DNA of 64,000 nt, from positions 1 through 64,000 of the forward strand of contig CACVBU010000024.1 in assembly GCA_902728285.1 (NCBI GenBank). Direction: 5' to 3'. Positions 25,101 through 46,184 of the stretch are shown here, piece by piece. The notes below the pieces were generated by a model. That model did not search any database. It was not told where the DNA came from and was given only the letters and a program-made list of their open reading frames with translations. The position numbers and the translations under genes are program-made. Position 1 is the stretch's first letter, and every line of letters starts with the position of its first letter. This DNA comes from Clytia hemisphaerica. Taxonomy: Eukaryota > Cnidaria > Hydrozoa > Leptothecata > Clytiidae.

Positions 25101-28100
25101 TAATGAGCAACTCTAATTGTAAGATTCCTATCACTTTATTGGTGCATTTACTAACTACACAAACATAAAATACTATGCTAAAAGAAATATAAACTTCTTT
25201 AAGTACTCTAAAAACATCAAAAACATGATAAAAATACAAAAATCCAGAGCAAGTCTGACACCCGGGGGGGGGGTACTAGGGTTGGTAAATGAGGGGTATC
25301 GGGGTCTGACAGCATGATCGAATCCGCCATTTAAAAAACGAGCAATGTTTACGAATTCTTGGTTCCACCTACCTAGCACTTGCGGACTGGAATCATTAAA
25401 TTTTATTTTAGCGAGTGAGTCCATGTTTTAGAATCTTCGAGAATGTTCTAGAATTTCAACTACTTTCGTTTTCTAACTTTTTTTCCGAGGACACCGCAGA
25501 AAGCCTATTGCAATACTTTCGCTCTGCGAAATTAACAAGGGGGTGGACGAACCTTTTTTAGTCAAAAAAAATTATTGAAAATGTGTGGTTACCCCCTGGA
25601 AAATGGTAAAATTTCCAAAAATACTCTTGGAAAATTTCATTTAATACCTTTTAAGTGAGGGTGAACGAACTAAAATCAGTCCTTTATCCCCTGGAAATTT
25701 TAGAATAACTTCTTACCCCATTGGAAAAATGAAAAAAGACCCCCTTAAATTTTTCTCGCATTACCCTCTGGAAAAGTTCGTCCACCCCTCTGTATGGATA
25801 TAAAATGGAATGGCCCAATGCTCAATATTTTTCATAATAACATAACATCGATTCTCTTATTCTGTAGGAACAGTGACACAGCCGTTAGATGAAGAAGGGG
25901 TGTACCACCTTTCGTTCGAAGGGCTGACCCCCGTCACACAGTATAACCTTTCCATCAGCTTCTTGACGGCTGTCGGTGAAGGTCCTATGGTTAATATTTC
26001 CATAATGACCACAGCTGGAAGTAAGTCAAAGAATCTTTTACACGGCCCTGGAAGATGGTAAAATTTCATATTTGCTGAAAAAGGAAGTCTGATTCTGACT
26101 GTTTTAAACTCAAAATACATTTTGACGGTAAATTGTTGACTCGTGTTCCGAGTAGGTTCTTCTTATCAAAAGCTGTAATGAAACCATCAACTCTATCATT
26201 TCTGTTTTAGCAACGACGCTTAGTTTTAAATTATTGTCAATTCTTTTTTTTCAGGGCCTGAAGTTCCACCAAATGAAATTTCATCTCTTCCTTCCAACGA
26301 TTCCTTAATTTACACATGGGGTGTGCCTTATTTAGAACTAATCTACGGTGCTGCTTTAACGTACAATATTTCACACTGTGGTATTTTGCGGAATGGCTCA
26401 CAAACTTGTTGGTTTAAGCAAAACCAAAGTATACCAGCTATTTGTGAGAAAGTACGAGACCCTCACTCAATTTTCACGAATTGTACATTGAGAGTGGATG
26501 GTCTGTTACCTTCTACTTTCTATACTGTCAATATTTCTCATTGTGGCATAGAAGGTTGTACTAACTGGACCAGTTTTCAATCGAGTACTTCAGAAATGGG
26601 TAAGGCTTACGGTCAATATAGTTTGCACTCGACTGTAGTGACTCGGGAAAATCCCTCTAGAGTTTTGGTGGGAATTTGCTTGGTTTGATTCAGCTGTAAC
26701 CTAAAAATGCTGTGCACCGAGAAACACTTGTAAATTCATAACCTGTCCCCTAAAAAGTCGACATCGTATTTTATTGAAGAGTAAAATTTGTTTCCGCTCA
26801 TCTTTCTAGCAGCACTCTTCAGACAAGTTCGAGCACAATGTTGTCCTATAACTGTTAATATTCCTGGCAAATTTTAAGTATTTTCTAGATGCAGATTAAA
26901 AAATTGAAATCCCTTCTTTCTTTAAGCTCCATCCGGGCAGGTTCCTGGTGTAACCGTTTTCGGGTTAACCGAATCCATCAACGCTTATTGGTCTCTCATG
27001 GAGATAATGAAAAGACGTGGTGTCATCATTGCGTACAATATCTCCGCACGGTTCATCACACCTCTATGGTGGCCTGTCAATGAAAGTGCTGTTCCACAAA
27101 CATTGTATTTCAACTCTTCAACGTTAAGCTGTTTACTGTATGGTTTACAAAACGACTCACTTTATAATGTCTCGGTCACTGCTCTTACAAGTGTGGGCTC
27201 TGGTCCTTGGAGTGAGCCGGTACAAATTCACACTCTCCAAAATGGTAATAAACATCTGTAAAGTATAGCTTGAAACGTATTTCAAAATAAACTAGTCGAC
27301 TAGCCTCGAAATGACCATGTTAGCGACAAATGATTCACCTTATTTTATGAAATGTGACGTCACTGAATTGCTGTATTTCCTCAAGATATGAAAAGCACAA
27401 ACAATCTATCGGCATCAAATTTGCTTTTCCACGATATGCTATATCTGCTAATACCAAAAATCCTCCAGACTATAGCAGCGTTTCTAGAACGAAAATCTTT
27501 CTGCGAAAAATTGCTGTACTGGCTTTAGATTTTAACATAGACGGGGCTATTTTTTTTTTTTATGATGAGGAAACCACTAACCGAAATTTGCTGTTCTCTA
27601 AATAGCACCAATTGTTATTTCAGTTCCAACTGCCGCGCCTATCAATGTTTCTGCAGATGGCATTCGAACTGAAATTTCCGTCGATTGGATACCCATTGAC
27701 CGATTCTATCACCAAGGCATTCTTCTTGGCTATAATATTAGTTTCCAAGCTAGAGAACCATTCCCTGATCGAGGTGGTCGGTTACAAGGCTATGATTTAT
27801 CATTTCTACCTAACATCTCACACGTGGTGTATGGATTGAATCCTCTTACCACGTATGATATCCGAGTTTCTGGGTTCACTGAGATTGGATCAGGATTACG
27901 GAGTGAAGCGATTAATGCAACTACTGACCCTTTCAGTATGTGATTTTTCCTATTGAGTCATTGTAAATAATTTTCTAAGCTCTTCTTTTTTTGAAAAGGA
28001 CATCATTAACTGAGGTGTTGCAAGATATAATAAGACCTGTTTTGATTTAATATTTCTAGTTGATGGGAATTGGACGGTGTGGACACAGTGGGGGAATTGT

Positions 28101-31100
28101 GAAGTCAGTTGTGGTTTAGGTGTGTCGTCAAGACAACGCTGGTGTATCAACCCACCTCTGGAGAATGGAGGAGCTCAATGCGTGAACGAATCGAAAGAAT
28201 ACATAGAATGCAACGATTTCCCTTGTGATGGTAAGAAAAATACGAGAACAAATCACGTCGAAAAAAAATGGTTTTAAGATCCATTTATTGTTTAAGTAAG
28301 TCTGCGACCGCAGTCAGAGGCGACCCGAAGGCTCTTCTTTCGATAGCTAGCTACCCGAAGGTAGGGGAGGGCGCCACTCTTTCTCCCCGAATTGCTCTAC
28401 TTACCCTTGATCCGTTTCTTAATTGCCGAGCATCAAGCAGAGAGGCATCAAGTACAATTTTGGAAATCTTTTGTATGACCCGGCTGGGGGTTGAACCACA
28501 ACCTTGCGCACCGTAGCCGGATGCTCTACCACTGCACTACGGTCGCTTTTAAGTGATGGTATATTATGCAATGTCAATTACCTTCTTTTATTGTTTATAG
28601 GTTTTTACTTAGGTAAACCAGGCGAATCTTGCGATAAAACATGCATCAATTTAAGTTCAGAGTTTCTTTGTAACCCTTTAATGGAACTCGACAACTCGAC
28701 ATCACAATTCCTGGAAGCTCAAGACGCGTATAACTACAGAGAAAAGAATGCAAATGTGTCCTGTATATCCAATTCTGGAACTGACAAATACACACTACCC
28801 GAAGACCCACAATTTAATCCTTTAAATGATGTTTGTATTGGCTTTCGTAATTTACCGAACATAACAGACTGTTCGGCGTTGCCAAGTGAAAATAACAACA
28901 GAAGATTATGTCAGTGCCTGGATGAAAGTAAGTCAGAATTTTTTTACCCCTGGAGATATGGCAAAACGCTCTTTTTAAACCCCCTGGAAATTCTGCTTGA
29001 AAATGTTCGTCCACCCTCCTGTATGGATATTTTGTTGGGAAGTAAATGTTAGTATTTTTGATATTTTGAATAACAGAAAATGTTGGATACGGTGAATGGA
29101 CATCATGGAGTTTATGCGAAGTCTCTTGTGGTGGAGGTCGTGCAAGACGTTCTCGCGCATGCTCCATTCCTTTCGGTGGTTGTTCGGGTCCTTCAATGCA
29201 AGTGGGTGACTGCAACACTGACCCTTGTCCTAGTAAGTATTGCTTTCAAATTACAGATTTTAGGCTATGTCTACACTTTATGAAAAACTAGCATGTGACG
29301 TTTGATGGTTCTTTACTTGAAATTGAACTCATCCAATGCAAGTTAAAGGAAATGGTTTGTCTGGTTGTATGTCGCTCTTTTTTGTCGTTATTTTTCGTTT
29401 TTTGTCGTTATTTCTCAATGGGTATTGGGTCATTATCAGTTAGGGTCAGGATTGAACTCAAGAGTCACAATTTACGGGCACTCGTACCCAGTAACTAAAC
29501 CTAAATCCTCGTATTTTCTTTGTTCTTTCATGGTCTCTTTATGGTGGTCTGATTTTGGAGCTTACACTCCCTCTCAGGTATCAATGCATTGTAAACCTTA
29601 CCCTACAACTCTAAATTTCCTTAACTCGAACAAATTTGTGTTCCCCGCGTGCGTGTTCGTGTTATAGAGACTTTTCTATGTTCTCATTATGAATTCACTT
29701 TCTTACTTTTAGTCTATGGCAATTGGGGTCAATGGGGGGAATACAGTGAATGTACAAAGACATGTGGTTTTGGGGTGGAAAGAAGAATAAGAAAATGCGA
29801 TTCTCCAAAACCACAGTTCGGCGGAGAAGGATGTCCTGGCACCGATGTTGATGAAATTGAAGGATGCAATCCAATGCCATGCCCAGGTTTGATTTATACT
29901 TTCATCTTGAACAACTTTAAGTACTACCTACTAGTCGAGGGGTTATAATTATTACTCTCGGTGTGTTTGTACAAGCTCCAATCCCATCAACCTTTGCGTT
30001 AATCTCTTTTGCATGTTAATTGCATCATTTGACAAAAGATATCTAACAACTTATCTTTAATTGAGCCGCATTGAATTGTGGGATAGCAACTCGTACAAAT
30101 GACAAAAAAAGTGAAAAGTAATAATTGTGACGTATGCGTTGCGGAGCGCTATTGCAGTTTAACATCTTATACCTTTATTTTTCACATACAGTGCATGGCC
30201 AGTGGGGATCGTGGGGCGAGTTTGAAGAATGTCTAAAGCCCTGTGGTAACCAATCACTTCGCATTTCAAGAAGATATTGTGATAGTCCAAAACCTCTGTT
30301 TGACGGATTGGATTGTGTGGGGAATAACACAAAAAGCGAAAAGTGTGACTTTGGAAACATCACATGCGCAGGTAAGATCTTTGATTCTGCGACTCTGAGA
30401 AAAGTTTTAGCAAACAGTGGGGGAACTCGAACCCAGTCCCATAAATGTTTACTTGGGTATTCTGTGGAGTGTTCTGTGACTTTGCAGTAGCGTAGACAGG
30501 AGGGGCGTAACATTGTAAAAAGATAATCAGAGTGTCATAAAAATCTGCTCTTCTACACAAATTTTGCGCCCCTCCTGTCTACGCTGCTGCTTTTTTGACA
30601 ACGTTTTAATTTATTATTTATTATTTAGAAATCCCACTAAATTTGGTATTACGTTTCGTGGATGAAGAATGGCATTTCATGATGTATCGTCCCCAGGACC
30701 CTCGCATTGTTGATCTGAGAAGAAGAATCATGCAAAACGTACGTAAACCTCAATATTTCTTAAAGTTTGTCTCAATTTAATCTGCACCGGAGACTAAGAA
30801 GGTTGCAACTTTTTAATAGAATTCGATTAGCATAGCGGTTTTGAGCTTGTTGAAAATATACCTAGGAGTGGCATATTATCAAATAGAGAAATATCTAGAA
30901 AGCTTTGAAAAAGAAGATGAAAAAAAGCTTCTTGTAGACGACGGTTTCTTTCACTTCAAGGAAATTCTAAAGATTTCGAGTTTTTCCCTGACTATCTAGT
31001 AATACTAAGGACTTATTATGCACTGGATATACAAGTAACAGATTTTTGCTGATTTCTCGTGTACTAGATATGTCCGCAGTAATGATATTATTGTTCACTC

Positions 31101-34100
31101 TCCTTCCCTCATTAAATGATTTTTCGAAGCATTTTTATTGCATTTCTTATCGAAAATCACTCATCCAATTCCCAAAAGAGACTTAAAACTTTCCTGTGAG
31201 AGTCAGATTCTTCCACTTAATTGCTAATTATAAGTCGTTATGACGTTTCAAGCTGTGAGAAAGATGCAAAAGACGTGTTGTGTATAAGAAATTTAATGTT
31301 GACACCGGAAATTTTCAAACTTCAACCTAAAAAAAACCACTTTGCCACCACGTGCCTCCAAAGGATTTTCATACCACACTGGATCCAAGACACTCAAGTC
31401 TTATGTATGTTAATTTCAGCTCTTCTGGGGACAATCTTGGAAAGATATTTCCAATTGAAAATTTCGTGTCACATAAGCATTTTGTCTGAATTTCTTGTCT
31501 AATGATGTTTTTCTCACATTACATTTCACAAATCTATCCAGCTCGGAATGCTAGCCTTAATGTCAAACTTTTTTCTGCAAATGTACAAAAAGAAAAAGCT
31601 AGAGAACTTTTTTTTCAATAAGACTGATAAACATTTTTTTAAATCAGACATCTTCGAGCCGCCATGACAGTTGTCCTTTGCGGACAAAGCTAGAACATCA
31701 ATTGTTTTCTGAAACAATGAAAATACAATGATCGCTCTCCATCGTTTTATGAGTCGTTTATCCAGTGTATAATAAATCTTTGGTAATACTCAAATATTAT
31801 AAAATAGAGAAAATCTAAAATTTTGTATGCTCGTATGCTTTGTACCATGCTTGCCCGTAACGGAAATGAAGTTGTTCTATTGGTTGAAAGTGACCTATTG
31901 AGTGTATACCATAGAATGACTTCATTTCGTTTCGGAGCGAAACAGAACCGTAGCGTGTGAACGTGGTCTCATTCTTTATTATTGATGTTTCTCAGGTGAT
32001 GGCCTTTTACAGAGACAACAATATCGATACAGCTTTCGATTTGAATAATCTTCGAATCGATTTCCACGGTCAATGGTAAGTTTGTTTATGTTTTTTGGAC
32101 TTCGGTTTAATAACTATGGACTAATTATTTTCAAAAAATGTTAAGCTCCGGCACTGTCAGGATTTCTAACATGAGTTTTCGAGGGTTTCAGATTTACAAG
32201 ATGTATAACTCGAACATAACTCGAACCTATGCACGTAAATCTGTTCGAGTTAAGGAAATTTCAAGTTATAAAGTAAGCTTTTTATAGCCTTGTTAACTGG
32301 AAGAACCATAATACTTGTCCGAGTTAAGGAGACATCGGAGTTGTTGAGGTTTAAGTCAAATAGACTCAACTGTATTATAAAAAGAACATTCATTCGGACA
32401 TCATTCGTGATTCTTTTCATTACCGCTCAGGCTTATTTTCATTTCATTTTATGTTTTCAGGAAAGGAAGTGTAGTGATGAATTTCACAATCATTTACCCT
32501 GAGAATCCGTTCGTGGAAGTTTTCATGATGCAATCTGAGCTGGAGTCTGGCTCCTTAAAAAACCTGTCACTTGTCCCACAAAATATTACAAGCAATAAAT
32601 GTAATAATCCTTTTTCTTCTCCTCCCAACCACCGTCTTTTCTCCACCATGATCAAAGATTTTCATTTATGAAAAATCTTGAATTCCGGGGAAACCTGGTG
32701 AAATTTACTTTCTGATAAATGGCAATAAGAAATCCCTTAATCCGAGAAAAAACTGCAAAATCCGCCTTGAAAATTCTGAGAGTACCAAGAAAGCCCCAAA
32801 ATAATCCCAGTATCGTTCAATCTCGTGTATGGAGTTTTCTCAAAAAGGGTGTCTCAAAGGGACGAGAGGGAGTTTTTACAAGCTCTTATTTGATTTGGTT
32901 GGTCGTTAACCAGTAATAAAACAATTTTGTTATTTTTTCTTATTATTTTCCCATTATTAAAGTATCTTATAAAAACTTCACCTCATGTCTGGTCTCAAAG
33001 AAAAAATAAATATTAAAAAAAATTGCTTCAAACTTTTTTTCATTCTATTGCAGTACCACTGGCACCAGTCAACATCTCCTTATCATCACCACAACCCTTC
33101 ATTGTTAACCTTTCATGGAAAGAAAACCCTAGTAATAATTACACAGAGCCTAACAATGACCCTTTCTACTTATATTACGTCTTCTATGCGCAAATACACG
33201 ACGAAGCAAACTACAAAATCAACAAATGGATTAATTTCGGAAGTAAAAATACTTCGGTACAGTTACGTGATTTGGAATCAGGTAGTTTATATGCTGTTCG
33301 CATCCTAGCTTCAACTATCAAGACGATGGGTTTGAGCACGGAAACTCAAGTCATCCAAGTATATGAGGGACGTAAGTATTCTACTTACTCAGATGTGCAA
33401 TCATGGTCGAAATATTTTGAGATTTTAGTGTATTTTAACGTTTTTCAGAATTTAAAGTTCGGGCTGGAATTGCTAATTTAGCACTTCTACTTTCTTTAAA
33501 GGAATATTTCAATTTTGGAGGGGTTCAGTGGCTTCTAGGCTATATTCCAAGCCTTATTGGAGAAAATTTTAGCTTTTGAATCTTGAGATCCTAAGGTCCT
33601 AAAGTTTCAAGTTTAAACTCAGAGTTAAAAACTCTACTTTCCAACTATAGTTTAACGCGTTTAAAAATAATTTGAGGTGTTTAAAATTAATGTTTTTTAT
33701 TTTAGTAGTTGAATATCACAAGCTTTCTTACTTATTGTACTTATAAAGCTAAACTCTTGATTTTCTTTCTTTCCATAGCACCAAAATCGAAGCCTCAAAA
33801 CACAACTCATCAATTCATGGATCCACGTCAAATTTTCATCAGTTGGGACCACATCCCGAAATCGGAGGTACCGGGAAAATTGAGAGGTTACCGTATTATG
33901 TACAGAATATATCAAACCAATGAGAATGTGACACTTGAAGTATCTGGTAATATCAATCAGAAGTTCATCCCTGGCTTGAAACCCTACACGTGGTACTGGT
34001 TTGAAATATGGGGATTTACTAGAGGAGGTCCGGGTCCCATTCACGTCTTTATGGATCAAACTCCAATGGCTCGTAAGTTCATAAGCTCGTAAGGTCTCAG

Positions 34101-37100
34101 CGACCGTAGTGCATTGGTAGAGCATCCGGCTAGGGTTCGCAAGGTTGTGGGCTCAACCCCCAGCCGGGTCATACCAAAGATTTCCAAAATGGTACTTGAT
34201 GCCTCTCTGCTTGATGCTCAGCAATTAAGAGAAGGATCAAGGGTAAGTGGAGCAATCCAGGGAGAAAGAGTGGCGCCCTCCCCTACCTTCGGGTAAATAG
34301 CTATCGAAAGAGGAGCCTTCGGGTCGCCTCCGACTGCGGTCGCAGACTTACTTACTTACTAAGGTCTCAAAATGACCATTATTCTTATTTTTCTAACTGA
34401 AGATACCTCTGAATTACACAGCTGGTGATACATGGTGTACGTACATTCGGTATTAACTTTTGTTAACTGAAATAAAAATGTCCATATGAATAGTGGCATT
34501 TGGTAAAAGAATTAAGATTTTCGTCTAGGGAATACGAAACGCGCATCACTTGTGCTTTGATTCGGTGACGATGAAATGAAAAGATTTAAAGACTTCACTT
34601 TTATCTAGAATACTTCTTCTTTTTTTTCAGCTCCTGAGAGTGAACCAATGAACGTGACCATCCATGAAAAATATTCTATCGATCAACTTTTCATAACATG
34701 GAAACCAGTCCTTAAACATCTTCAAAATGGTCCACTGGATGGATACAAGATCGTCTATTATCCGAATCGGATTGGTGGAGAGATAGTCGGGAAACTGGAT
34801 GATCCGATGGAGCTGACTTTCGATAAATACACCTTCTCTTGGAATATCACTGATCTACAAAGTTACACTGAATATACAGTTGAGATATTTGCCTTCAATA
34901 AAGTTGGAACGGGCCCCAAAGTCACACTTCTTGCAAGTAAGATCCTTTTTTCTTGTATTTATGGCTTTGAATATGTTTCGCATTAATTTGATTTTGTTGA
35001 TGATTTGGATACTCACATATTAGTAAATTTTTTCATGTTTTCGTCGTTTTGTGTATGGTGCCATAGGTGGTTTCAGGCCCTGTCGAACTTATCAGAGGAA
35101 GAGATTTGCAATGAAATTTCATTGTCAATTAACGAGTGTTGCACTCCTTCGCATGTTTCCGACGTACTTGCTTTATTTTCTTAAATCTTCCAGTGCGGTG
35201 CATTGGTTTTCTTTATAAATTCCGACATTTTTCTTTCCATAGGAACATGCAACTGTCCTCGTTACATCTTGACCAACTTCATCGCAGCCGCACCGTATGT
35301 TGTCAAAAACACATCAACAATCTATCCAACGTACACTGGAGTTTTCCCTGTCATTCTGCAAAGAATTGTCGACACAATATGTTCTGATTGTATCAACGGT
35401 GGTTTGTCATTGCTTTCATATAATGTTTCACTGGACGGTCTTAGCAACGAGAAGGAAAGTATTTTAGATATGAAGAATGGAGTAAGTGAGGATGTCCAGG
35501 TCACTTTTCCGATGTTTGGCAAATTCGAGATGACCCGACACGCTGGTCAATATCCGTATATCGGTATGGTCAATTCTCAAGGTATTGCGGTATTGAAATA
35601 CCAACCACGTATTGTTGCTATTGGTTTGTGGAGATTGTTGACAGCTGTCATGGGAGCATGGCCTGTCATTATGGTGGCTGTGTTGATGTGCACGATCGTC
35701 GGTATATTGTTTTGGTTTACAGTAAGTTATAAGTAGAGTTCATTTTACGGTCTAGATATTATACTTCAATGGGATCAAATTTCGCGGGGATCAAATTTAT
35801 TGTGAATTTCGCGGATTCGGGTGTCATCTGCGAAATTAAGTCCCAATGGAAATTTGGAAAGGCCTTATCTGGGAAATATCTTTGAGCAAAACTCAAAAAA
35901 TGGCAAATTAACTATTTTTTAAATGTTTACAATGGCATCAAAGAAGCGCCAATAATGCGTATTTCAGCAAGAAAAATGTCTAATTTGGAAGTAAATGGCA
36001 CAAAATCGTGAAAATATTGTTAGTAAGTCCCCGCGAAATGTTAAAATTTCGCGGATGAAGTAATAGCGCACTGCGCTAATCTAAAAATAGATTTTAATTT
36101 TGACATAATCATTACTCTCGATGTGTTTGTACGAGTTCCAATCCCATCAACCTTTGCGTTAATCTCTTTTGCACGTAAATTGCATCGTTTGACAAAAGAT
36201 ATATAACAGCTTGCACGTATCTTTAATTGAGCCGCGTTGAATTGTGGGATTGCAACTCGTACAAATGTCAAAAAAAGTGAAAAGTAATAATTATGACGTA
36301 TGCATTGCGGAGCGCTATTGATAATCTCTTAAGTGAAAAATGTTAATGTTTGTAAAAGATTTACAATGATTGTGTAAAATCATGTCTTTCAGGAATTTGA
36401 TTCAGAACTAGAAGAAGTGAGCAAAGACTCGATGATTCGTGGTGCAATGGGTGGTTTATGGGTGGCTTTCATCACCATGACATCCGTTGGGTAAGCGAGA
36501 CAAAGATTTTTCATGGTTTTCATTTCTCTTTGAGGATTTTTTACTTAGTGATATCCACATTATCTTAGAGTTTGGAAATAATCCAGTTATCTAAAAAGAA
36601 ATCTTAATTTCACTCTTGCTCTTATCTAAAAAGCCTTTGAGAGTCAAGCATGCAAAAGGGGGACCTTGTACACAATACCATGTTTACTCTTGTAGCTATG
36701 GTGATATTACTCCTTCGACCAACAAATCTAAAGCTTTGATGGTGATTTGGGTTTTGGCTGGCTTCATTTTGTTGGGCATCATTTCTTCAGCCATCGCTTC
36801 AGGAATGTCTGTTGGTCAAATGAAAGATGGCTTCAAATTGTATGGCGCTAAGGTAGGTTTTTTGACTAAAGAGGGCATCTAAAAGAAAAGTATTTTAATT
36901 TTGAAGCGAACTCTAAATAATTGATAAGTCAATATCAAGTTAAACTGCTGTAAGGGCACTAGAGGTATGAATTTATCTTTCAGTTTAACTATATGAAGCT
37001 TAAATTGATTTAATATGAGAAATTGGCTGATTTTGAAACCCTTGATAGGCCCTTTTCTTTTATGAATTGACTTTTTTACATTTTTCCTGACTTTGAAAAT

Positions 37101-39316
37101 ACCGTAAATCCTCGAATAAGCGCCCGGGCGCTTATTTAATTTTTCAGACTCTAAGGGGGCCGCTTATTCAAGCGGGGCGCTTATTCGAGCGGGGCGCTTA
37201 TTTTTTTATTTCAGAAGTTTGTATACCAACAAATTGGAAATCTGCCTAAACTTAACTGTTTAAAAGGGTAAATTTTTCAATATCTTATTCAATCAATAAC
37301 AATATTTGAATAAGCGCCCCTACCTTTCCAGAGAAATAGTTTTGATGAATCATAATTTGATGAAATATTCCACTAATCTCTTTTTAGATTGGTGTTATAG
37401 AAGGCTCATACGAATATAATGTGGCAGTTCGTAGAAATGGGAAAGTAAACGAAAGCACCACTTATGCTGAATTAGATGATCTCATTGAGGCTGTAGGCGC
37501 AGAAGAAGTGGAAATCGGGCTAGTGGATTCCACAGAGCTTTTGGGCAAGGAGAAATATCTGGAAGAGAAATCCATCATGATAACCCGAATTTTGAATTAC
37601 AATACTGGTTATGGGTTTGTTTTATCCGGAGATCTTATCCGCCTGGAATCGGATTTCCGTGCATACATCACTGGCAATCAAGCATACTTGATTTGGTATA
37701 TCGAGAAAGTACTTGGCAGACTTAATGTAAGTGGAGCTTTAATGCTCATTTTCAAACCTTTCCCCGACATTCTACCTGTCAAATTATATAGCTTTTAAAG
37801 GTCTTTTGTAAGGAATTTCATCGGTTGAGACTGAGACCTATTTAGCAATAAACGGAATTTTGTACCACAGTCTCTTTAACTCGAATATCTCCTTAACCAG
37901 AACAACTTTTCTCATACCTTTAGTAATACCTTATAAACCTTACTCCATAACTCGTTCAAAATCTCCTTAAGGGCTCTGACCATAGTGAATTTTTAATATT
38001 TGCCACTTACAAAATATAAAATTCTACTTAATCTAGCCCACAAAACTGTGGCATGTTATAGATTTTCTGTTAGGTCAATTATCCTTGAATCTGAAAATTT
38101 AAGAATTGCAATGAAAAAATTTGATGAAGAAGAAAATGAAGACTTTTGCGAAGAAGAGTATTTCAGCTTTGAAGAGCTTAAAGTTTCGACGAAGTAAAGA
38201 CATTTTGAAAATTTTTTTGCGGTAGATTTTGTAGGTGATTTACAAAGGCATTCTTTGTTGAAAGTGTTAAAGAACCTAAAACATAACTTTTATGTTCAAT
38301 AATACTAACATCAATTTTCCGACTATGGTCAGAGCCCTTAAATCGAACAAATTTGTGTTCACTCTGTACGCGTTCGATATGGAGACTCAACTGTACTTGG
38401 CTACTATAAAATTTCAACCTCCTCTTTTTAGCCGACCATGATTGAAACATTGGAAGTGTTATTGATGCCCGAAGAAGCATCCACCATTCTCCTACAATTG
38501 TGTGGCATTTGGGCGGTGGCGGTTTTATTGGGCGCCTCATTCTCTTTCATCAGAGAAACATTATGTCAAGGAAAATCAAAAGTTCAACCGAGAGGTAATA
38601 AATGTTTTCTGAAGTCCGAAAAAAATGAGTTTGAAAGAAAAGAGACACTTCTGTGTCACAGACCCGCTGGATCCCCAGACCCCCAAAATTTCGTACCCGG
38701 TGGAAAAATACCCTGGATTTCAGCCCTACTGGGAAATTCACTTTGATTTCATCCCCACTCAAAATTCAATGTTTAAAAAATTGCACTCCAAAACCATCCC
38801 CACTGGATTTTTTAACCTTGGAACAATAAAATTTCTATCCCCATTGGGATTTCAATAGGAATATTTATCCCCATTGAGGAAAAAAGCCCCACCGGGGCTG
38901 TGAGACAGGGGTGTAAAGAGGTTCATGAAACACTAATATAAAGAGTGCTGAGTGTCGAGTGCTTATAGTCTGTTTATTGTTTAAATGGTTTTCATTTGAT
39001 AGGAACCCCTGAACAAAGATATGCTGATGTCAATACAAGCCTTACAAAAGAAGTGTCTTCCTTCCACCAGAAATTTACTGGCTCTGTTGAAGAAATTTCC
39101 AATCGACAAGACGATGAAAAGATTGAATTAGATCGATTACAACGCTGTTATAAATCCTGGAAATATCGAGATAATTTTCATAACATTTTCAAACTAGAAG
39201 CGGACTTAGAATTACACCGCACGAAGAAAAAAGAACGCGCGGCCGAACTGAAAACTAAGAAAGCAACAATGTACCAGAGAGAATTGGACTTCAAAAAGAG
39301 ACTGCACTATAATTGA
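1..39316 (+). CDS. Gene A: giant multidomain K+-filter glutamate-receptor-like channel (5' partial)
   Basis: The gene enters from the left edge. Exons: 1-271, 829-1221, 1896-2279, 2444-2581, 3608-4102, 4675-4925, 5957-6047, 6610-6997, 7735-7855, 9015-9183, 9674-9787, 11413-12042, 13138-13415, 13559-13611, 13970-14130, 16901-17209, 17655-17954, 18885-19211, 19650-20083, 20448-20763, 21151-21282, 25868-26020, 26255-26599, 26927-27244, 27624-27935, 28060-28230, 28601-28927, 29077-29232, 29713-29886, 30192-30371, 30629-30738, 31996-32075, 32461-32600, 33054-33371, 33779-34072, 34631-34936, 35243-35721, 36393-36490, 36696-36852, 37388-37726, 38432-38594, 39003-39316. The total is 10,689 nt, an exact multiple of three, with no internal stop; nearly all ectodomain junctions are phase 1. 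Predicted role: a plasma-membrane ion channel with GluR topology, a potassium filter and an adhesion-type ectodomain. Least certain: the end of the 13138 exon (13268 or 13415) and the 4675 acceptor. The start codon and signal peptide lie outside the window. Confidence 0.9.
4675..7855 (+). CDS. Gene A exons 6-9: laminin-G-like module(s)
   Basis: Exons 4675-4925, 5957-6047, 6610-6997 and 7735-7855 encode residues 561-844. The last two fit a laminin-G or concanavalin-like fold: a strand with EEYLFQFGREES, a strand FTVTIQSGFIIF, then the typical W-x-x-V-A-I-K-G segment (QWTTVAIKG) and a final LQIFFDSK. The strong acceptor for exon 6 is the pyrimidine-rich stretch ending at 4674, because the open frame further upstream contains a TAG at 4605. 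Junction phases run 1, 0, 1, 2, 0, so this part is less modular than the FN3 array. The intron 4926-5956 contains a G-tract mobile element. Confidence 0.7.
5464..5920. mobile_element. G-tract MITE with internal tandem repeats
   Basis: Left end is a G-tract then GTACTAGGGTTGG and GGGGTATGTGCGGAC; right end has GTCCGCACATACCC and a C-tract. Inside, a unit of about 51-55 bp (ACCCTTAGAGAGACTT... TTTTTGAAAAAAGTCAT) is repeated from about 5560 to 5760. Related copies are at 8475-8778, 22345-22583 and 25262-25312. Confidence 0.72.
8475..8778. mobile_element. G-tract MITE, second copy
   Basis: G-tract followed by GTACTTAGGCGAGTGAAGGG; ends with CTCGCAATCCTAGTATCCCCCC. The internal unit is AATAAGGGTCG-like rather than ACCCTTAGAGAG, its reverse complement with drift. 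In the gene A intron 7856-9014. Confidence 0.65.
9015..12042 (+). CDS. Gene A exons 10-12: laminin-G / concanavalin-like module
   Basis: Exons 9015-9183, 9674-9787 and 11413-12042 encode residues 845-1148. The large third exon has the strand order of a laminin-G sandwich: LGIVFRI, QIVSIGGYRLSIWW, a central Cys-containing strand, then FEVWTFMEFFIFEDRVVYYLN, matching the W-x-F-x-x-x-x..YLN signature of such folds. The first two exons contain four Cys (LSCFRYY, QPCSHLY, TDCHAK, LSCQLTW), probably forming disulfides. The intron 9788-11412 is largely occupied by a 1.1-kb inverted-repeat element. Assignment to LamG is from pattern only; a profile search would decide. Confidence 0.7.
10190..11320. 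mobile_element. 1.1-kb inverted-terminal-repeat element
   Basis: Left end TTACCAGTGGATACCCC followed by TTAAAACCCACAA; right end carries GTGGGTTTTAAGGGGTAT and GGGGTATCCACTGGTA. The short module 'cccttaaaacc' recurs four times inside. No transposase frame; the 68-codon frame at 10621 is low complexity. Occupies most of the intron before exon 11413 of gene A. Confidence 0.75.
12110..12749. mobile_element. 640-bp MITE with 27-bp terminal inverted repeats
   Basis: Left end CAACGACCTAATAAAATAGA, right end the inverse (TCTATTTTATTAAGTCGTTG). Lies in the intron between gene A exons 11413 and 13138. The interior is AT-rich with no gene. Confidence 0.72.
12952..13078. repeat. GGCCC-rich inverted repeat, copy 1
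   Basis: AAGGCCC and GGGCCGATAAGG ends with internal GGCGTTAAAAAGG units. Related stretches at 43997-44095 and 44770-44845 share CCTTATCGGCCC and GGCGTTATT. Confidence 0.55.
13138..14130 (+). CDS. Gene A exons 13-15: degenerate FN3-like linker domain(s)
   Basis: Exons 13138-13415, 13559-13611 and 13970-14130 encode residues 1149-1312. The short middle exon reads L-S-D-L-Y-E-I-T-L-L-P-S, the closing Tyr-corner pattern of a fibronectin III domain, which suggests the first two exons make one degenerate FN3. The third exon (HFRYFLSRYP to HYTVLLSTQT) may be half of another. The end of the first exon is ambiguous: GTAAGA after 13268 is the stronger donor, but the frame stays open with protein-like codons to 13415. 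Both choices are phase 0, so the downstream frame is unaffected. Confidence 0.6.
14213..14562. mobile_element. MITE with TTCGCGA-rich ends (GGCGTACAAAC type)
   Basis: Left end CGTACAACTTTCGCGAGCAG, right end ...GCTAAAGGTTTGTACGCC, with repeated CGCGAAA motifs. Homologous copies are at about 405-590 (one end, TTTAGGCGTACAAAC) and 48204-48502. Confidence 0.65.
14851..16397. mobile_element. TIR element with Gly/Cys-rich tandem repeats, copy 1
   Basis: Starts GGACCTACCTCGGAGGTCC and ends AGGTAGGTCC, followed internally by a (GTTC)n/(GTCC)n microsatellite at 14885-14930. The body is made of diverged ~200-500-bp tandem units containing GCCGGAAATATGCCGGAAA and 'catcattagttttttctga'. Short open frames on both strands here are products of the repeat. 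It fills the largest part of the intron before exon 16901 of gene A. Confidence 0.72.
16901..27935 (+). CDS. Gene A exons 16-25: array of about nine fibronectin III domains
   Basis: Ten exons encode residues 1313-2294, mostly one FN3 per exon: 16901-17209, 17655-17954, 18885-19211, 19650-20083, 20448-20763, a domain split over 21151-21282 and 25868-26020, then 26255-26599, 26927-27244 and 27624-27935. Signatures include the core Trp (IAWQKYP, YTWGVP, VDWIPID), the Tyr corner (LKSYTRYSLYL, LTPVTQYNLSI, LQNDSLYNVSV, LNPLTTYDIRV) and closing G-x-G-x strands (VGEGP, VGSGPW, IGSGL). Apart from the phase-0 junction between 20083 and 20448, borders are phase 1. Many NxS/T sequons point to an extracellular location. 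Some domains have extra Cys (26255 exon: SHCGI twice, TCWF, NCTL). The FN3 split across a 4.6-kb intron is the only one interrupted so far apart. Confidence 0.88.
17324..17582 (-). mobile_element. tRNA-derived SINE, third and most diverged copy
   Basis: Same family, minus strand, in the intron between exons 16901 and 17655 of gene A. Several substitutions relative to the other copies (for example GACCTCAGTCGGAGG in the body) suggest it is older. No clear flanking duplication. Confidence 0.8.
18404..18738. repeat. Inverted-repeat element with nested GCGTCAACTGTA repeat
   Basis: CTCAGGGGTGTTGG at the left mirrors CGACACCCCTGAG at the right. Inside is a stretch shared with 17270-17320 (CGAATTAGAAAGCGTCAACTG). 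Confidence 0.55.
19322..19518. repeat. ~195-bp inverted repeat
   Basis: CGTAGCTTCGTATAATATCG against its inverse near 19495-19518, with inner pair CTATCTGGTCT / AGACCAGATAG. In a gene A intron. Confidence 0.62.
21530..22318. mobile_element. Foldback element in the 4.6-kb gene A intron
   Basis: The left arm (about 21530-21870) and right arm (about 21880-22318) are near inverted copies; for example 'gccatggagactggcg' near 21670 and 'cgccagtctccatggc' near 22188. It contains ATGACGTCAT palindromes. It separates the two halves of one split FN3 domain. Confidence 0.78.
22345..22583. mobile_element. G-tract MITE, third copy, decayed
   Basis: Begins GGGGCATACTAGGGTTG and ends GCCGAAGTACCCCCCCC, with CTTAGAGC- and CTTACAGAGAC-like units inside. 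In the 4.6-kb gene A intron. Confidence 0.55.
23258..23458. mobile_element. ~200-bp MITE
   Basis: AATAGACCTTTTTTCAAAGA and TCTTTGAAAAAAGGTCTATT are inverted ends; the arms continue with GTTGAATAATTATGTAGTCC. In the 4.6-kb gene A intron. Confidence 0.72.
23964..24385. mobile_element. ~420-bp inverted-repeat element
   Basis: Arms share CTTCAAGATAGGCCACCATA and GTGGCTTTCAGCCTTGCACT and their inverses. In the 4.6-kb gene A intron. Confidence 0.7.
25262..25312. mobile_element. G-tract MITE, terminal fragment
   Basis: Only one end remains: G-tract, GTACTAGGGTTGG, TAAATGAGGGGTAT. The rest is missing or too diverged to see. Confidence 0.5.
28060..28230 (+). CDS. Gene A exon 26: thrombospondin type 1 repeat 1
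   Basis: One phase 1-1 exon encodes residues 2295-2351 with the full TSP1 pattern: a Trp ladder (NWTVWTQWGNC), CEVSCGLGVSSRQRWC, then NGGAQC and a final CNDFPC. TSP1 repeats bind glycosaminoglycans and matrix partners and often carry C-mannosyl-Trp and O-fucose. The matching exon of gene B (55357-55527) has the same 171-nt length. Confidence 0.92.
28295..28548 (-). mobile_element. tRNA-derived SINE, second copy
   Basis: Reverse complement of the same family: the (AAGT)-type tail is at the left and the tRNA-like head (B box near 28490, A box near 28525) at the right. TTTAAGT on the left and TTTTAAGT on the right look like the target duplication. It sits in the intron between TSP1 repeat 1 and the Cys-rich module of gene A. 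Confidence 0.82.
28601..28927 (+). CDS. Gene A exon 27: cysteine-rich module resembling the MGAT5 C-terminal region
   Basis: One phase 1-1 exon encodes residues 2352-2460. It begins GFYLGKPGESCDKTC and ends RRLCQCLDE, with Cys also in FLCNP, VSCIS, DVCIG and TDCSA. The spacing recalls, from memory, the C-terminal cysteine region of N-acetylglucosaminyltransferase V (GxxGxSCxxxC ... C ... RLCPC); this likeness is not verified. It lies between the first and second TSP1 repeats, and gene B has the same module at the same place (54874-55191), so it is a fixed part of the family rather than a chance insertion. The function here is unknown, and no glycosyltransferase catalytic domain is seen nearby. 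Confidence 0.75.
29077..30371 (+). CDS. Gene A exons 28-30: thrombospondin type 1 repeats 2-4
   Basis: Three phase 1-1 exons (29077-29232, 29713-29886, 30192-30371) encode residues 2461-2630. The repeats show GEWTSWSLCEVSCGGGRARRSRAC, GNWGQWGEYSECTKTCGFG and GQWGSWGEFEECLKPCGNQ, each closing with a Cys pair (CNTDPCP, CNPMPCP, CDFGNITC). Gene B has three TSP1 exons in the same order (150, 174, 174 nt). The intron before the last repeat contains one copy of a ~200-bp repeat that ends about 35 bp upstream of the acceptor. Confidence 0.92.
29944..30154 (+). repeat. ~210-bp interspersed repeat, copy 1
   Basis: Nearly identical to 36105-36320 in the same orientation, including ATTGAGCCGC and TTGCGGAGCGCTATTG. 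Copy 1 ends about 37 bp before the acceptor of a TSP1 exon. Confidence 0.75.
30489..30593. repeat. Short inverted-repeat MITE
   Basis: GCGTAGACAGGAGGGGCG and CGCCCCTCCTGTCTACGC, 105 bp in all, in the intron before the SEA exons of gene A. The interior (ATCTGCTCTTCTACACAAAT) resembles the right arm of the element at 18404-18738. Confidence 0.65.
30629..32600 (+). CDS. Gene A exons 31-33: SEA domain
   Basis: Exons 30629-30738, 31996-32075 and 32461-32600 encode residues 2631-2740. The pattern is that of a SEA (sperm protein, enterokinase, agrin) domain: first strand PLNLVLRFVDEEW, helix with RIVDLRRRIMQNVMAFY, then the central turn WKGSVVMNFTIIYP. GSVV matches the autoproteolysis site of mucin-type SEA domains, where cleavage is between Gly and Ser. 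Splice phases (1-0, 0-2, 2-1) and exon lengths (110, 80, 140 nt) closely match gene B (110, 77, 143). If cleaved, the N-terminal ectodomain would stay non-covalently attached to the channel part. Confidence 0.8.
30739..31995. other. Intron inside the SEA domain
   Basis: A 1.26-kb AT-rich intron between SEA exons of gene A. Short open frames on both strands (near 31221-31502 and 31526-31717) show no domain and no splice partner. Nothing else recognised. Confidence 0.5.
33054..34936 (+). CDS. Gene A exons 34-36: three membrane-proximal FN3 domains
   Basis: Exons 33054-33371, 33779-34072 and 34631-34936, all phase 1-1, encode residues 2741-3046, one FN3 each. Core motifs are VNLSWKENP, IFISWDHIP and LFITWKPV; Tyr corners are LESGSLYAVRI, LKPYTWYWFEI and LQSYTEYTVEIFA; the last two end with GGPGP and VGTGP. 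They sit between SEA and the ligand-binding core, in the place usually taken by the amino-terminal domain linker of glutamate receptors. Gene B has three counterparts with equal or nearly equal exon lengths (303, 297, 306 nt). A SINE lies in the second intron of this block. Confidence 0.92.
34091..34369 (+). mobile_element. tRNA-derived SINE with target-site duplication
   Basis: The 5' head has a tRNA-like A box region (TGCATTGGTAGAGCATCCGG) and a B box-like GGGCTCAACCCC. A ~170-bp body follows, and the 3' end is a short (ACTT)n run. A 9-bp duplication, AAGGTCTCA, flanks it at 34091-34099 and 34361-34369. It lies in the intron after exon 33779-34072 of gene A. Two more copies of the same family are present in reverse orientation. 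Confidence 0.88.
35243..38594 (+). CDS. Gene A exons 37-41: S1-TM1-pore-TM2-S2-TM3 core with TSVGYGD filter
   Basis: Residues 3047-3458. Exon 35243-35721: S1 half-domain (YPTYTGVFPVIL; YPYIGMVNSQGIAVL) followed by TM1 (VIMVAVLMCTIVGILFWF). Exon 36393-36490: acidic linker and pore helix ending AFITMTSVG. Exon 36696-36852: YGDITPSTNKS, then TM2 (MVIWVLAGFILLGIISSAIA). Exon 37388-37726: S2 with VAVRRNGK, GLVDST and NTGYGFVLSGD, matching the GYGI-P strand of glutamate receptors. Exon 38432-38594: TM3 (LQLCGIWAVAVLLGASFSFI). The order S1-TM1-P-TM2-S2-TM3 is that of ionotropic glutamate receptors, while TSVGYGD is the potassium-channel selectivity filter, as in cyanobacterial GluR0. The invariant S1 Arg is not clearly placed (an MTRHAG Arg is a candidate), so the ligand is unknown. 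Confidence 0.93.
36062..36321 (+). repeat. ~210-bp interspersed repeat, copy 2
   Basis: Copy of 29944-30154. Here an inverted end is visible: AATAGCGCACTGCGC at the left against GCGGAGCGCTATTG at the right, so the family is probably a MITE. Lies between the TM1 and pore exons of gene A. Confidence 0.72.
37100..37332. repeat. GAATAAGCGCCC repeat
   Basis: Repeated GGGCGCTTATTCGAG units with inverse GAATAAGCGCCC at both ends. In the gene A intron between TM2 and S2. Confidence 0.6.
39003..39316 (+). CDS. Gene A exon 42: cytosolic charged helical tail and stop codon
   Basis: The last exon encodes residues 3459-3562 and the TGA at 39314-39316. The sequence is rich in Glu, Lys and Arg with heptad-like hydrophobic spacing (EEISNRQDDEKIELDRLQRC; LELHRTKKKERAAELKTKK), consistent with a cytosolic coiled coil after TM3. 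Gene B ends with a tail of similar type and length (45901-46184), but identity is low outside the hydrophobic positions. It may assist tetramer assembly or cytoskeletal anchoring; that is inference. Confidence 0.88.
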
Positions 39317-39332
39317 AAAAGCTCTGGATTGA

Positions 39333-39583: not shown

Positions 39584-42465
39584 CTATTCCATCCAAGATC
39601 TGCAATAACAAAATTTTGCGAGTTTTGGATACTTAAACTTGATGCAGGTGGGTTGTTTACCATACAAGTTTGTTCGGCTCATTTCCCCATCAACAATCAG
39701 TTCGTCATTATGTTTTCGTGTGACCCTAACATCAAATGTCGCGTTGCTAGGTGACACTTGTAGCATGATATTAAAAAGATCTGCATCTTCACCTGGGACT
39801 TTCCCCATCTCAAGGCTGATAATTTTTTTCAGTTCCAGCTTAATGCATATAGGTATAGCTTCTTTATATGACTCAATAATGTTGTTAATTTTATCGACCA
39901 CGGCATTTCCAATTTTGTGTGCAATTTTCGTGTTAGATGGCACAGCTTTCTTGTTTGTGCACACGCAATAACCTTTAGGAATGCCCGTTTGATTGCATGT
40001 CCGAGTCACTGGATTTATTTTGGTAAAAAGTGACTGTCCGTAGAGAAGGTTGACCGGTTTTTGTGGATACAATAAAATGTGTTGTAACGTTGCATGTACA
40101 TCAAAATGGGATGTCAGAACCTCCGTATTAGCTTTCATATTTAAATACAAGTCTTTGTGTCGGCGTTTAAAACCAGGGGGTAATATAATGGAATAGAAAG
40201 GTAAGAATTCTTCCATTCTGCCTTGTTTTGTGTTTCGGAAATCTCCCGTCACAACATTTCTGGAACCGTGGTCACCAAAAAGAAATAAGATGGTGTTTCG
40301 CCGACGCTTCTCATCTGCATAGAATTTGACCAAGTCTAAAAAATTTCATATAGAATGCACTAGTTAATGAGTAATCGTAGTAATCTGAAGGCTTTATAAA
40401 CCGAACAAGGTCTTTTTAGTCTAGGAAAAGGTTTTTAAATATGATTTTGAATGAAAAGTAACAGTTCAAAAATTAATACAAATTTACACAAAACACAAGT
40501 GTGGCAACCTGACATTTACATGGAATTCTTTGAAAATATCTTACTTAGAATTTCATCTTCAATCATATGCAGGTTATTCATATCATGATGAGCTTGATTG
40601 AACATCGTCACCGAAAACTTCAAAGATCCTTCACAAGTCTTCGTAAAACCTCTTGAATTCGCTTTAAGTCTTGACTTTCGCAGACACAAGGTTCTTTTCC
40701 ACATCCATTGTTATCCCTATGGGCGGCAATCCAATACGGGCGTGTATACCAATCAGTTGGGGCGTCTTTAAAGCCATTCATTCGATACTGAAATGTACCA
40801 CCCGTTACACCGTCTTCGTTTAACATGGTCGAGTAGCCAGCGTCAGAAAATTTCTTAAACAAAAGGTTTGGTATTTCGTCGCATGATTTATTGTTCGGAC
40901 GTTGCCATGGATTCTCCTTGGTTTCAGAATAATGGTAGCCTAAAAAAGGAAAGTAAATATAATATGGTAATGGATAGAGAAAGATTCTTCAGGTTTTTGT
41001 CATCACCATCGACGTTTTTCAATTGTAAAAATAGGACAGTGCAGGCTCTAGGAAATATAATTCCGAGTTTTCACAGTTTTTAATATATAGTTGGAATAAT
41101 ATATAGTTGGTATTAATTAGTATTTGATTATAACTATGTCAGACCCACGTTAAATAAATTGGAAAATAAAAAAATAAAATAATCTGAGGCTTATAAATAC
41201 AACTCACCAGCTAGTGTGGCCATCATTTGGCTCGTTGTTCCATCGCCATGGATACCATGTTTCTTGAAAAGCATCACGTCTTCGTTGTCATGCAACAAGC
41301 GCATTAAACGTGGCATCTGACGGTATAAGTTACTTCTCGATTGTGCGTCTAACATAACCATAGCAACGTTGTATTTCAATCCCGTGGATTGTCTTTTGAT
41401 CTTTTTCCGTGAACGGCAAACCTTTTGGGGATTGGAAATGAATGAATGAAACTCTTTGACGACTTGTATAGAAGTTTGATTTGAGTGTTTTACTAATAAT
41501 AATAAACTGACAAAGTCTTCGGTCAGTGGTTTCAAAACAAATTTCTCATCGGTAGAATTCAACTCAATCGGGTCTGTAAAATGTACATGGAAATCGTCAT
41601 TTAAGACATTAGAATATTTATATTGATGATGTATAATGATATCATCAGAAGGGAGTGTCCGATAATCAATCCGTCCGTCCGCAAACTTTTTTCGACCTCT
41701 TTTTATATATTGAGCTCTTACTGCAATAACTGCACCCTTTGGATTTTCAACAATTAAAGAACTTCCTTCGATTTTACCATATTTCTTGGTGGAGCACTCT
41801 TCTTTTTTATTGAATGTCCATGCCTTCAGAGCATTCGGATGGAATGGGTCAAACACAGGTGGTTGACAGGCCACTGTCAGATTTTTATTAGATCCCTCTC
41901 GCATGCGGCTAGCTTCCTCTTCATCATTTTTGAACAAAGTTTGCTGATATTCTTTTATCAAAACTTCCCTGTCTTTTTTCCAAGCTTCTTCATTTGTTGT
42001 ATTCATAAGATTCAGTTTTTTAACTTCAATAATTTCTTGAAGAAATTTACGACAATCTTCTTTTATCGCTTTCGTAATCTCTGGTGAAATAAATTTACCT
42101 TTCTTTTGTGTCCTTTTAGAAGTCTCAACTCGCTTACTCTTCGTTTGACCCTTTTTCATTTTCATTGTCGGCGACTTCTTTTGCTTAGGTTTGACCCGTT
42201 TTTCTCCAACAGAAGATTTTCCACTTATTGAAAATCTTCTTTTCTCATCACTCGGAATCATAGATTTCCGAAGTATCTCCTTGGAATTGCTCTTTTGAAA
42301 TGTAAGTTCCATCTTCGAATCTCTATAGTCATCAACTTTAGATGGTCTTCGAAAAATGGCGAACTCCATAGAAACAGTTTGACCTCCTTGCAAACATCGA
42401 ATCAGAATGTAAAATATTACAAACAAAACCAGGATCACAAAGAGCATTTGCTTTTGTTTCTTCAT
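39584..42465 (-). CDS. DUF229 sulfatase-like type II membrane protein (frame disrupted)
   Basis: Three exons on the minus strand: 42465-41208, 40939-40545 and 40335-39584, about 800 residues. The start ATG (42465) is followed by a short basic stretch and a membrane anchor (QMLFVILVLFVIFYILI, residues 7-23), then a Lys/Arg-rich stem (about residues 60-120), giving type II topology. The alkaline-phosphatase-superfamily DUF229 signature is visible: AMVMLDAQSRSNLYRQMPRL near the end of exon 1 (metal-ligand Asp region), HHDMNN in exon 2 and FLFGDHGSR in exon 3, followed by ILPPGF and SHFDVHATL. The substrate is unknown. Phases agree across exon 1/2, but exon 2 is one base short for its junction to exon 3 and shows an internal shift, so this may be a pseudogene, a polymorphism or an assembly error. 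It ends tail to tail with gene A. Confidence 0.85.
40545..40939 (-). pseudogene. Frame-disrupted middle exon of the sulfatase-like gene
   Basis: Reading from 40939, the frame encodes GYHYSETKENPW to KRIQEVLRRLVKDL and then meets TGA at 40622-40620. The next part of the conserved domain (TCEGSLKFSVTMFNQAHHDM) continues in the frame one base back, and only that frame joins exon 3. The shift lies between about 40655 and 40630. The exon is 395 nt; 394 or 397 (mod 3) would be needed to join both neighbours. Both halves keep domain-like sequence, so the lesion is recent, or it is a sequencing error. Confidence 0.75.
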
Positions 42466-42900
42466 GTTGAATTGATCTATTGGTAAAAGATGATAAAATT
42501 TACTAATTTATTTACGGCTGTTTAAAAGAAAATGCCAATCTTCCGTCGACTACACGTTTTTTTTTATTAGAACCCAGTTTTTTAGAACATTGAGGCTGAA
42601 ATTCGTCGAAAAATTAAGAACATGCCCAGCCTCAATTTGGAAAAAAATGACAAGAAAGTACAATTTTTTCCTCTTTTCAAGCAGTTTTAACCGAACTTAG
42701 GGATGGATTTTCTACAATCAAAAGTCAAATATTGTCCAAATTTTACCAACTTTAAGTGCTCTTTATTTTGCATGATAGTAGTGAAGTTACCGAATATTGC
42801 CCTAAAAAAACTTTTGTTGGAGGATGATGAGCAGAAGACTATCTTGCTTTGAAGAAAGGTTTGCCACAAATAATTTTAAAGGTATACTTTTTAATTAGAA

Positions 42901-45900: not shown

Positions 45901-46184
45901 TTAATTGTTTTTGTCATACGTAGATTCAATGATCCTATCAAATTGTTTTTTACGGATAGCTCTGGCTAATTTTTTCTTGCTTTTCTTCTCGAATTCTTCG
46001 TGTTGTTTATACAAGTCTAATCTATTCATCAAACGTTTGTAATTCTGATGTAAAAAGTTCAGTTCAATCAACTCTTTCTGGTTTTTTGATGACATCTCTT
46101 CGATCGAAGCTTCAAATTTCGTACAGAAGTTCTCGCTGAATTTGACGAGTGATGTCATCTTCGCGAGTCGAGTTGATGATGTTT
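45901..46184 (-). CDS. Gene B exon 19: charged helical tail and stop codon
   Basis: Encodes the final 94 residues ending YDKNN and TAA at 45903-45901. Glu/Lys-rich with helical periodicity (FEASIEEMSSKNQKELIELN; EEFEKKSKKKLARAIRKKQF). Two minus-strand AATAAA motifs lie downstream (45820-45815 and 45779-45774) and are candidate polyadenylation signals. Confidence 0.88.

Follow-up and report, generated by a model that had tools for sequence, protein, structure and literature searches.

Two paralogous genes of Clytia hemisphaerica carry a K+ channel-type filter in a core of likely glutamate-receptor-like topology beneath an adhesion-type ectodomain

We analysed a 64,000-nucleotide stretch of the hydrozoan Clytia hemisphaerica (contig CACVBU010000024.1 of assembly GCA_902728285.1), hereafter the window; its kinds of gene and its introns point to animal DNA. 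It contains two paralogous genes, A on the plus strand and B on the minus strand, and their exon structure, K+-type filter, three hydrophobic helices and ectodomain families can be read directly from the DNA. For gene A, a model built by hand extends from 26255 to 39317 and joins 20 exons with GT-AG borders into a single open frame of 1592 amino acids with one terminal stop. The encoded protein begins with FN3-like exons, followed by a thrombospondin type 1 (TSP1) repeat, a Cys-rich domain, three more TSP1 repeats, a SEA-like domain, three FN3 exons and the channel core.

The first exon of the model (26255-26599) was recognised by eye as FN3-like and splices in frame; the true start may lie upstream, and this exon had no partner among the gene B ORFs in a tblastn of these ORFs against the gene A half. 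Further upstream, two fn3-type ORFs at 17633-17974 (just below the Pfam cut-off) and 20448-20777 (just above it) may also belong to gene A. The FN3 exon at 26927-27244 (Pfam fn3, 3.6e-08) pairs with 57047-56607 of gene B, and the FN3-like exon at 27624-27935, which splices in frame, pairs with 56210-55818. The TSP1 repeat at 28060-28230 (Pfam TSP_1, 6.2e-10) shares 62% identity with the gene B ORF at 55546-55316. Between this and the other TSP1 repeats lies the Cys-rich domain (28601-28927; partner 55222-54830, minus strand), for which no Pfam family was matched up to E 1. The remaining repeats are found at 29077-29232 (partner 54546-54259), 29713-29886 (Pfam TSP_1, 2.4e-11; partner 54038-53622) and 30192-30371 (partner 52659-52309), the first and last of these being among the four TSP_1 stretches of the spliced model.

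The SEA-like domain (30629-32600) is assembled from three exons, 30629-30738, 31996-32075 and 32461-32600, of which the first and last pair with gene B and the middle one is without a partner. Its Pfam SEA match (E 0.01, 16.4 bits) is below the 26.4 cut-off and aligns nearly the full length, residues 5-90 of 110 to positions 4-87 of 106. The domain contains GSVVM, which we take to be the usual place of self-cleavage, with GSVLANF as the gene B counterpart; the gene A ectodomain may be cut here yet still attached. Three FN3 exons follow at 33054-33371, 33779-34072 and 34631-34936, the last adjoining the channel core. Pfam fn3 matched three stretches in an 822-amino-acid piece starting at the first of them, and the other two are also supported by pairing with gene B and by in-frame splicing.

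The channel core of gene A starts with an exon (35243-35721) that encodes an S1-like segment, a pre-TM1 stretch and TM1, with 37% identity to the gene B exon and a TM1 hydropathy peak of 2.57. Spliced translation places the TM1-P linker, the pore helix and the first filter half (TMTSVG) at 36393-36490, and the second filter half (YGDITP) with TM2 (hydropathy peak 2.49) at 36696-36852. The S2-like segment (37388-37726) is 44% identical to the gene B exon and gives a marginal profile signal to binding proteins, described below. It is followed by TM3, which is M4-like (38432-38594; hydropathy peak 2.16), and by an exon joined by an in-frame splice that encodes a predicted cytosolic tail and the stop (39003-39317).

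The original prediction had claimed a K+ filter, TSVGYGD, within 36393-36852, and this was borne out: the two exons lie exactly there, have GT-AG borders (36490/gtaagc, tag/36696) and splice in frame to AFITMTSVG/YGDITP, with ...LWVAFITMTSVGYGDITP... as the translation across the junction. The first exon ends with ...LWVAFITMTSVG plus two bases of a glycine codon, and the second finishes this codon before YGDITP. Because the 205-base intron splits the first glycine codon of GYG (GG/C), the motif is invisible in any single frame, and a scan of the unspliced sequence did not report it. In silico, retention of this intron gave a stop right after TSVG, skipping of either exon alone broke the frame with an early stop, and skipping of both kept the frame and deleted the pore. 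K+ channel filters follow the pattern TxxTxG(Y/F)G with a pore helix before it and a helix on each side, an arrangement found for both TMTSVGYGD in gene A and TMTTVGYGD in gene B. Gene A has serine in place of the fourth-position threonine, and serine at this innermost filter site has a precedent in hERG.

Gene B is encoded on the opposite strand, and its core (49105-45901) is 40% identical to that of gene A over 463 amino acids. Paralogue alignment located the S1-like segment and TM1 at 48642-49105, the pore helix with TMTTVG at 48033-48130 (also by splice analysis), YGDFVP with TM2 at 47653-47809, a single exon holding both the S2-like segment and TM3 at 46885-47377, and a predicted cytosolic tail with the stop at 45901-46184. 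The gene B filter reads TMTTVGYGDFVP, and its intron (48033/47809), which if retained gives TTVG and then a stop, interrupts the glycine codon at the base where gene A is also split. Since a paralogue on the opposite strand codes for such a filter with the codon split at the same phase, the gene A filter is more than a chance motif, and we regard a K+-type filter at this place in gene A as near certain. The filter introns of the two genes have common words of only 7-11 bases; therefore, the pair is no recent copy. Over the P-helix and filter, 13 of 20 residues are identical and dN is 0.22, the lowest of the eight regions compared between A and B (0.54-1.32 in the others; dS was incomputable in five of the eight).

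The ectodomain of gene B is represented by unspliced ORFs at 49338-57047 (minus strand), comprising FN3, TSP1, Cys-rich, three TSP1, SEA-like and three FN3 units. As these ORFs pair in order with the exons of gene A in tblastn against the gene A half, a near-complete receptor was duplicated, tail to tail. Gene B and the adhesion-type ectodomain had no place in the original prediction. A DUF229 (sulfatase-like) gene at 39584-42507 (minus strand) lies between the two genes. An FN3-like ORF at 63693-63998 (minus strand) may be part of gene B, and in that case an uninterrupted frame of 725 amino acids at 59030-61204 (plus strand) is antisense to gene B. Pfam gave this frame a weak ubiquitin match and none above the cut-off, and the PDB gave none up to E 1.

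For the identity of the pore, the Ion_trans_2 profile suggested as a check in the original prediction scored above its Pfam cut-off in both genes (4e-8 for A, 4.9e-11 for B), which supports a K+ channel-type pore. With phmmer, gene A matched 206 sequences of solved structures up to E 1; among the 60 of these 206 PDB matches listed, all were K+ channels by name but one, 'Lmo2059 protein', and they matched over the pore. The KcsA sequence aligned with both A and B from the P-helix through TM2, and in this alignment the Trp before the filter, T, T, VGYGD and the two TM2 glycines coincide. With the whole-core profile, hhalign gave a probability of 93.8% for KcsA vs 3.4% for the glutamate receptor GluA2.

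Hydropathy analysis identified three hydrophobic helices, TM1, TM2 and TM3, in both genes, in the order ectodomain-TM1-P-TM2-loop-TM3-tail. The original prediction had called the order of S1, S2 and three transmembrane helices intact; the helix order was supported in this way, and the reading of S1 and S2 as a glutamate-receptor ligand-binding domain was overstated, since neither Pfam nor the PDB gave a match for them. TM1 of gene A is preceded by 38 of the 41 NxS/T sites and by the TSP_1 and fn3 matches, and hydropathy showed no peak between the FN3 exons and S1. The R/K-rich flank after TM3 in both genes is in favour of the inverted channel proposed below, and the linker after TM1 speaks against it, having acidic rather than positive charge. 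With FN3, TSP1 and SEA-like domains before TM1, the N-terminus is of extracellular type, so that the pore loop would enter from the cytosol and S2 would lie outside, as in glutamate receptors. On balance, a glutamate-receptor-like topology of the core is likely.

One account of the origin of the core is a true ionotropic glutamate receptor lineage, similar to AvGluR1, whose binding domain drifted beyond recognition and whose amino-terminal domain was replaced by FN3, TSP1 and SEA domains; we consider it a serious possibility, at somewhat under an even chance. The order S1-TM1-P-TM2-S2-TM3 speaks for this account, including the last helix, which GluR0 lacks according to the excerpts of PMC6385376. 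The Lig_chan profile, which the original prediction had put forward as a check, gave E-values of 2.3e-5 for A and 2.6e-4 for B, but the bit scores fell below the 30.8 cut-off in both genes (24.7 and 25.7 for two constructs of A, 21.3 for B). The profile was also unspecific: among six bacterial control channels (KcsA and five others), one from Streptomyces reached 21.0 bits, near the value of gene B, and the other five gave no match. In a two-sequence BLAST search, A aligned with GluA2 from the end of S1 (SQGIAVLKYQP / SLGISIMIKKP) through TM2 with an E-value of 0.002, which also favours a receptor lineage. Against it, the motif SYTANLAAF was absent from the inner helix, where A reads LGIISSAIASGMSV and B reads IGIFGGVVSSGLSV; SYTANLAA is given as a glutamate receptor inner-helix motif in the excerpts of PMC3483616.

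The SBP_bac_3 profile, another of the suggested checks, failed to match the gene core, which again counts against a receptor lineage, though the control, the TM-S2-M4 part of GluA2, itself scored only 14.4 bits. With S1 and S2 joined, neither a Pfam family nor a PDB chain was matched up to E 10, and S2 with TM3 likewise matched no PDB chain. Given the limits that HMMER filters set on such searches and the low score of GluA2 itself, the absent S1/S2 match is weak evidence. The segments were further compared with 18 family-3 binding proteins chosen for diversity, namely seven from E. coli and 11 fetched from 40 listed of 2380 matching plasmid records. GluA2 and GluN1 served as controls, and GluK2 was used in a receptor-only profile and left out of the binding-protein tests. 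A search of viral contigs for further binding proteins yielded one near-copy, which was unused, and otherwise none.

Against the 18 binding proteins, S2 of A and B together scored 16; of 200 shuffles, 2 reached this score, and 2 of 200 did so again when GluA2 and GluN1 were added to the binding proteins. Taken singly, S2 of B was matched by 2 of 200 shuffles and S2 of A by 30 of 200, which is not significant. A separate low-threshold alignment of S2 to a 20-sequence profile covered 105 of 113 columns. S1 scored 20, reached twice by 1 of 200 shuffles, but the match spans 23 columns and its place is doubtful, with TYTGVFPVILQRIVD aligned to a region of the binding proteins that differs from the region predicted by receptor order. 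The controls GluA2 and GluN1 scored 42 and 38 for S2 (vs 16 here) and 76 and 74 for S1 (vs 20 here), and in each case none of 100 shuffles reached the value. With the three-sequence receptor-only profile, the two halves did no better than shuffles (43/200 and 76/200), and alignment of the whole S1+S2 profile gave a probability below 1%, twice. Other shuffle tests gave 3, 1 and 5 of 150 for S2, the 1 being an off-register alignment of 34 columns, and 2, 144 and 2 of 150 for S1. AlphaFold2 predictions of single exons had pLDDT values of 46 and 42 and pTM values of 0.25 and 0.26, with confidence in the membrane helices only.

Descent from receptors is favoured by the S2 signal and its register against binding proteins, and also by two short stretches, GLVDST/GLIDAS with its Asp and GYG(F/M)VL in A/B, at the places of which glutamate receptors have E/DS and YGI. 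It is disfavoured by S1, which had no match in a sensible register. Ionotropic glutamate receptors conserve an arginine in S1 that binds the ligand carboxylate; at the nearest place A has TRH and B has KTY in an insecure S1 alignment, and this difference would also argue against a receptor lineage. Taken as sequence comparisons, the resemblance of S2 to family-3 binding proteins is marginal and the short S1 match is doubtful. The core resembles an inverted K+ channel that has receptor topology, and its membership in the glutamate receptor family is the weaker claim.

Capture of an animal K+ channel pore by an adhesion-type receptor, with a convergent topology and with S1 and S2 of other origin, is a rather unlikely alternative origin. 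It would account for both genes scoring higher against KcsA than against GluA2 (40.0 vs 26.6 bits for A; 33.5 vs 21.9 bits for B, whose match to GluA2 lies outside the pore). The retained K+ channel glycines in TM2 and the unmatched S1 would fit such a fusion as well. Furthermore, two-pore-domain K+ channel genes typically have the codon for the first filter glycine interrupted by an intron, and the intron in this codon of A and B could mark the origin of the pore. However, yeast TOK1 was the sole two-pore-domain channel among the 60 of 206 PDB matches listed, an inverted pore arising by chance fusion requires a matching ectodomain, and the marginal S2 signal to binding proteins is also contrary to this account. 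Descent from receptors and fusion are competing accounts of origin, and each can be compatible with the inverted, K+-selective channel that we favour.

It is improbable that the pore has the ordinary K+ channel orientation, with the pre-TM1 stretch of gene A as an extra helix and S2 in the cytosol. This stretch is barely over the hydropathy threshold (1.63 vs 1.6) and, if it were a helix, the topology would flip; but gene B has N and K in the corresponding stretch and no such peak, a helical hairpin would have rather few residues, about 37, and TM3 would end outside with a long, charged tail. Non-functional or mis-modelled genes are very improbable: although the models come from genomic DNA alone with splice sites read by eye, twenty exons join into one frame that stays open to a single stop at its end, the gene B core is open too, and dN is lowest over the P-helix and filter.

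Overall, A and B are probably subunits of a K+-selective tetrameric channel with a glutamate-receptor-like inverted pore, a putative two-lobed gating domain formed by S1 and S2, and an adhesion-type ectodomain. Topology, tetrameric assembly and K+ selectivity are what we infer for this channel, and its two-lobed fold, ligand and gating are conjecture. In the proposed arrangement, an extracellular stalk of FN3, TSP1 and SEA-like domains would lead through the S1-like segment to TM1, and the TM1-P-TM2 pore would dip in from the cytosol, inverted relative to ordinary K+ channels. The S2-like segment would lie outside and be followed by TM3 and a cytosolic tail. Gating of the pore would most likely fall to a two-lobed, strongly diverged domain made of S1 and S2: when this domain binds something or the stalk pulls, the K+ pore of the tetramer would open and the cell would be hyperpolarised. 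We tentatively propose that the two genes may represent a new class of animal channel, an inhibitory adhesion-receptor K+ channel outside the named glutamate-receptor groups, in which an inverted pore is combined with an FN3/TSP1/SEA stalk and a clamshell directly gating K+ flow.

The predicted channel shares its topology and segment order with animal ionotropic glutamate receptors (AMPA, kainate, NMDA, epsilon and lambda), which differ in having another filter and SYTANLAAF in the inner helix. In addition, GluA2 and GluN1 have binding domains strongly similar to bacterial binding proteins, and the amino-terminal domain of animal ionotropic glutamate receptors differs from the ectodomain of A and B. 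With KcsA, TOK1 and other K+ channels, A and B have the filter, P-helix and TM2 in common, whereas they differ in their predicted opposite orientation, extracellular S1 and S2, third helix and adhesion-type ectodomain. Structures of the binding domains have reportedly been solved for AvGluR1 of the bdelloid rotifer Adineta vaga and for GluR0 of Synechocystis. As described in excerpts of PMC12332018, PMC11479355, PMC3483616 and PMC12226733, AvGluR1 resembles A and B in being an animal gene with receptor topology, including the last helix, and a K+-type TxVGYG filter. It differs in being activated by amino acids (excerpts of PMC12226733), while the binding domain in A and B is unrecognised and their ectodomain is FN3/TSP1/SEA-like. 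AvGluR1 is Na+-permeable according to the excerpts of PMC3483616 and K+-selective according to those of PMC11479355 and PMC12226733; because of this disagreement, a TxVGYG-type motif alone leaves K+ selectivity unsettled. GluR0 likewise has an inverted K+-type pore between S1 and S2, but is bacterial and is without the last helix and an N-terminal domain (excerpts of PMC6385376).

The same excerpts describe a presumed descent of glutamate receptors from an inverted K+ channel set into a bacterial binding protein, and in the literature passages covered, GluR0 and AvGluR1 are the natural forms that still have a K+ filter. Among animal glutamate receptors, AvGluR1 alone had a K+ filter in the passages covered of the open-licence literature; PMC6307864 did not contain 'potassium', 'GYG' or 'fibronectin'. 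Searches for relatives of the core gave 591 pattern matches in bacterial genomes and 28 in viral contigs, none of which was confirmed. On plasmids, tblastn returned 4 of 72,556 records (E 0.4-1), which were bacterial ion channels. The best reading of the channel encoded by A and B is a variant beside AvGluR1 and GluR0 with an unrelated-looking outside. If true, it would add a second case in animals, in the form of two diverged paralogues whose ectodomain is different, and would mean that animals kept or regained a K+-type pore in this topology repeatedly or more broadly than is known; A and B would then be two natural proteins with which to probe the coupling of ligand or adhesion to K+ flow.

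As for other elements of the window, Rfam gave no match at the gathering threshold. A tRNA-like short interspersed element occurs in three copies (17321-17578, 28293-28545 and 34101-34358) that are pairwise 85-94% alike. Patterns of repeats from the window gave 0 matches in viral contigs and in genome contigs. A repeat of about 210 bases is present as a pair at 29945-30154 and 36105-36320, 92-94% alike, and the latter copy lies in the gene A intron just before the pore exon.
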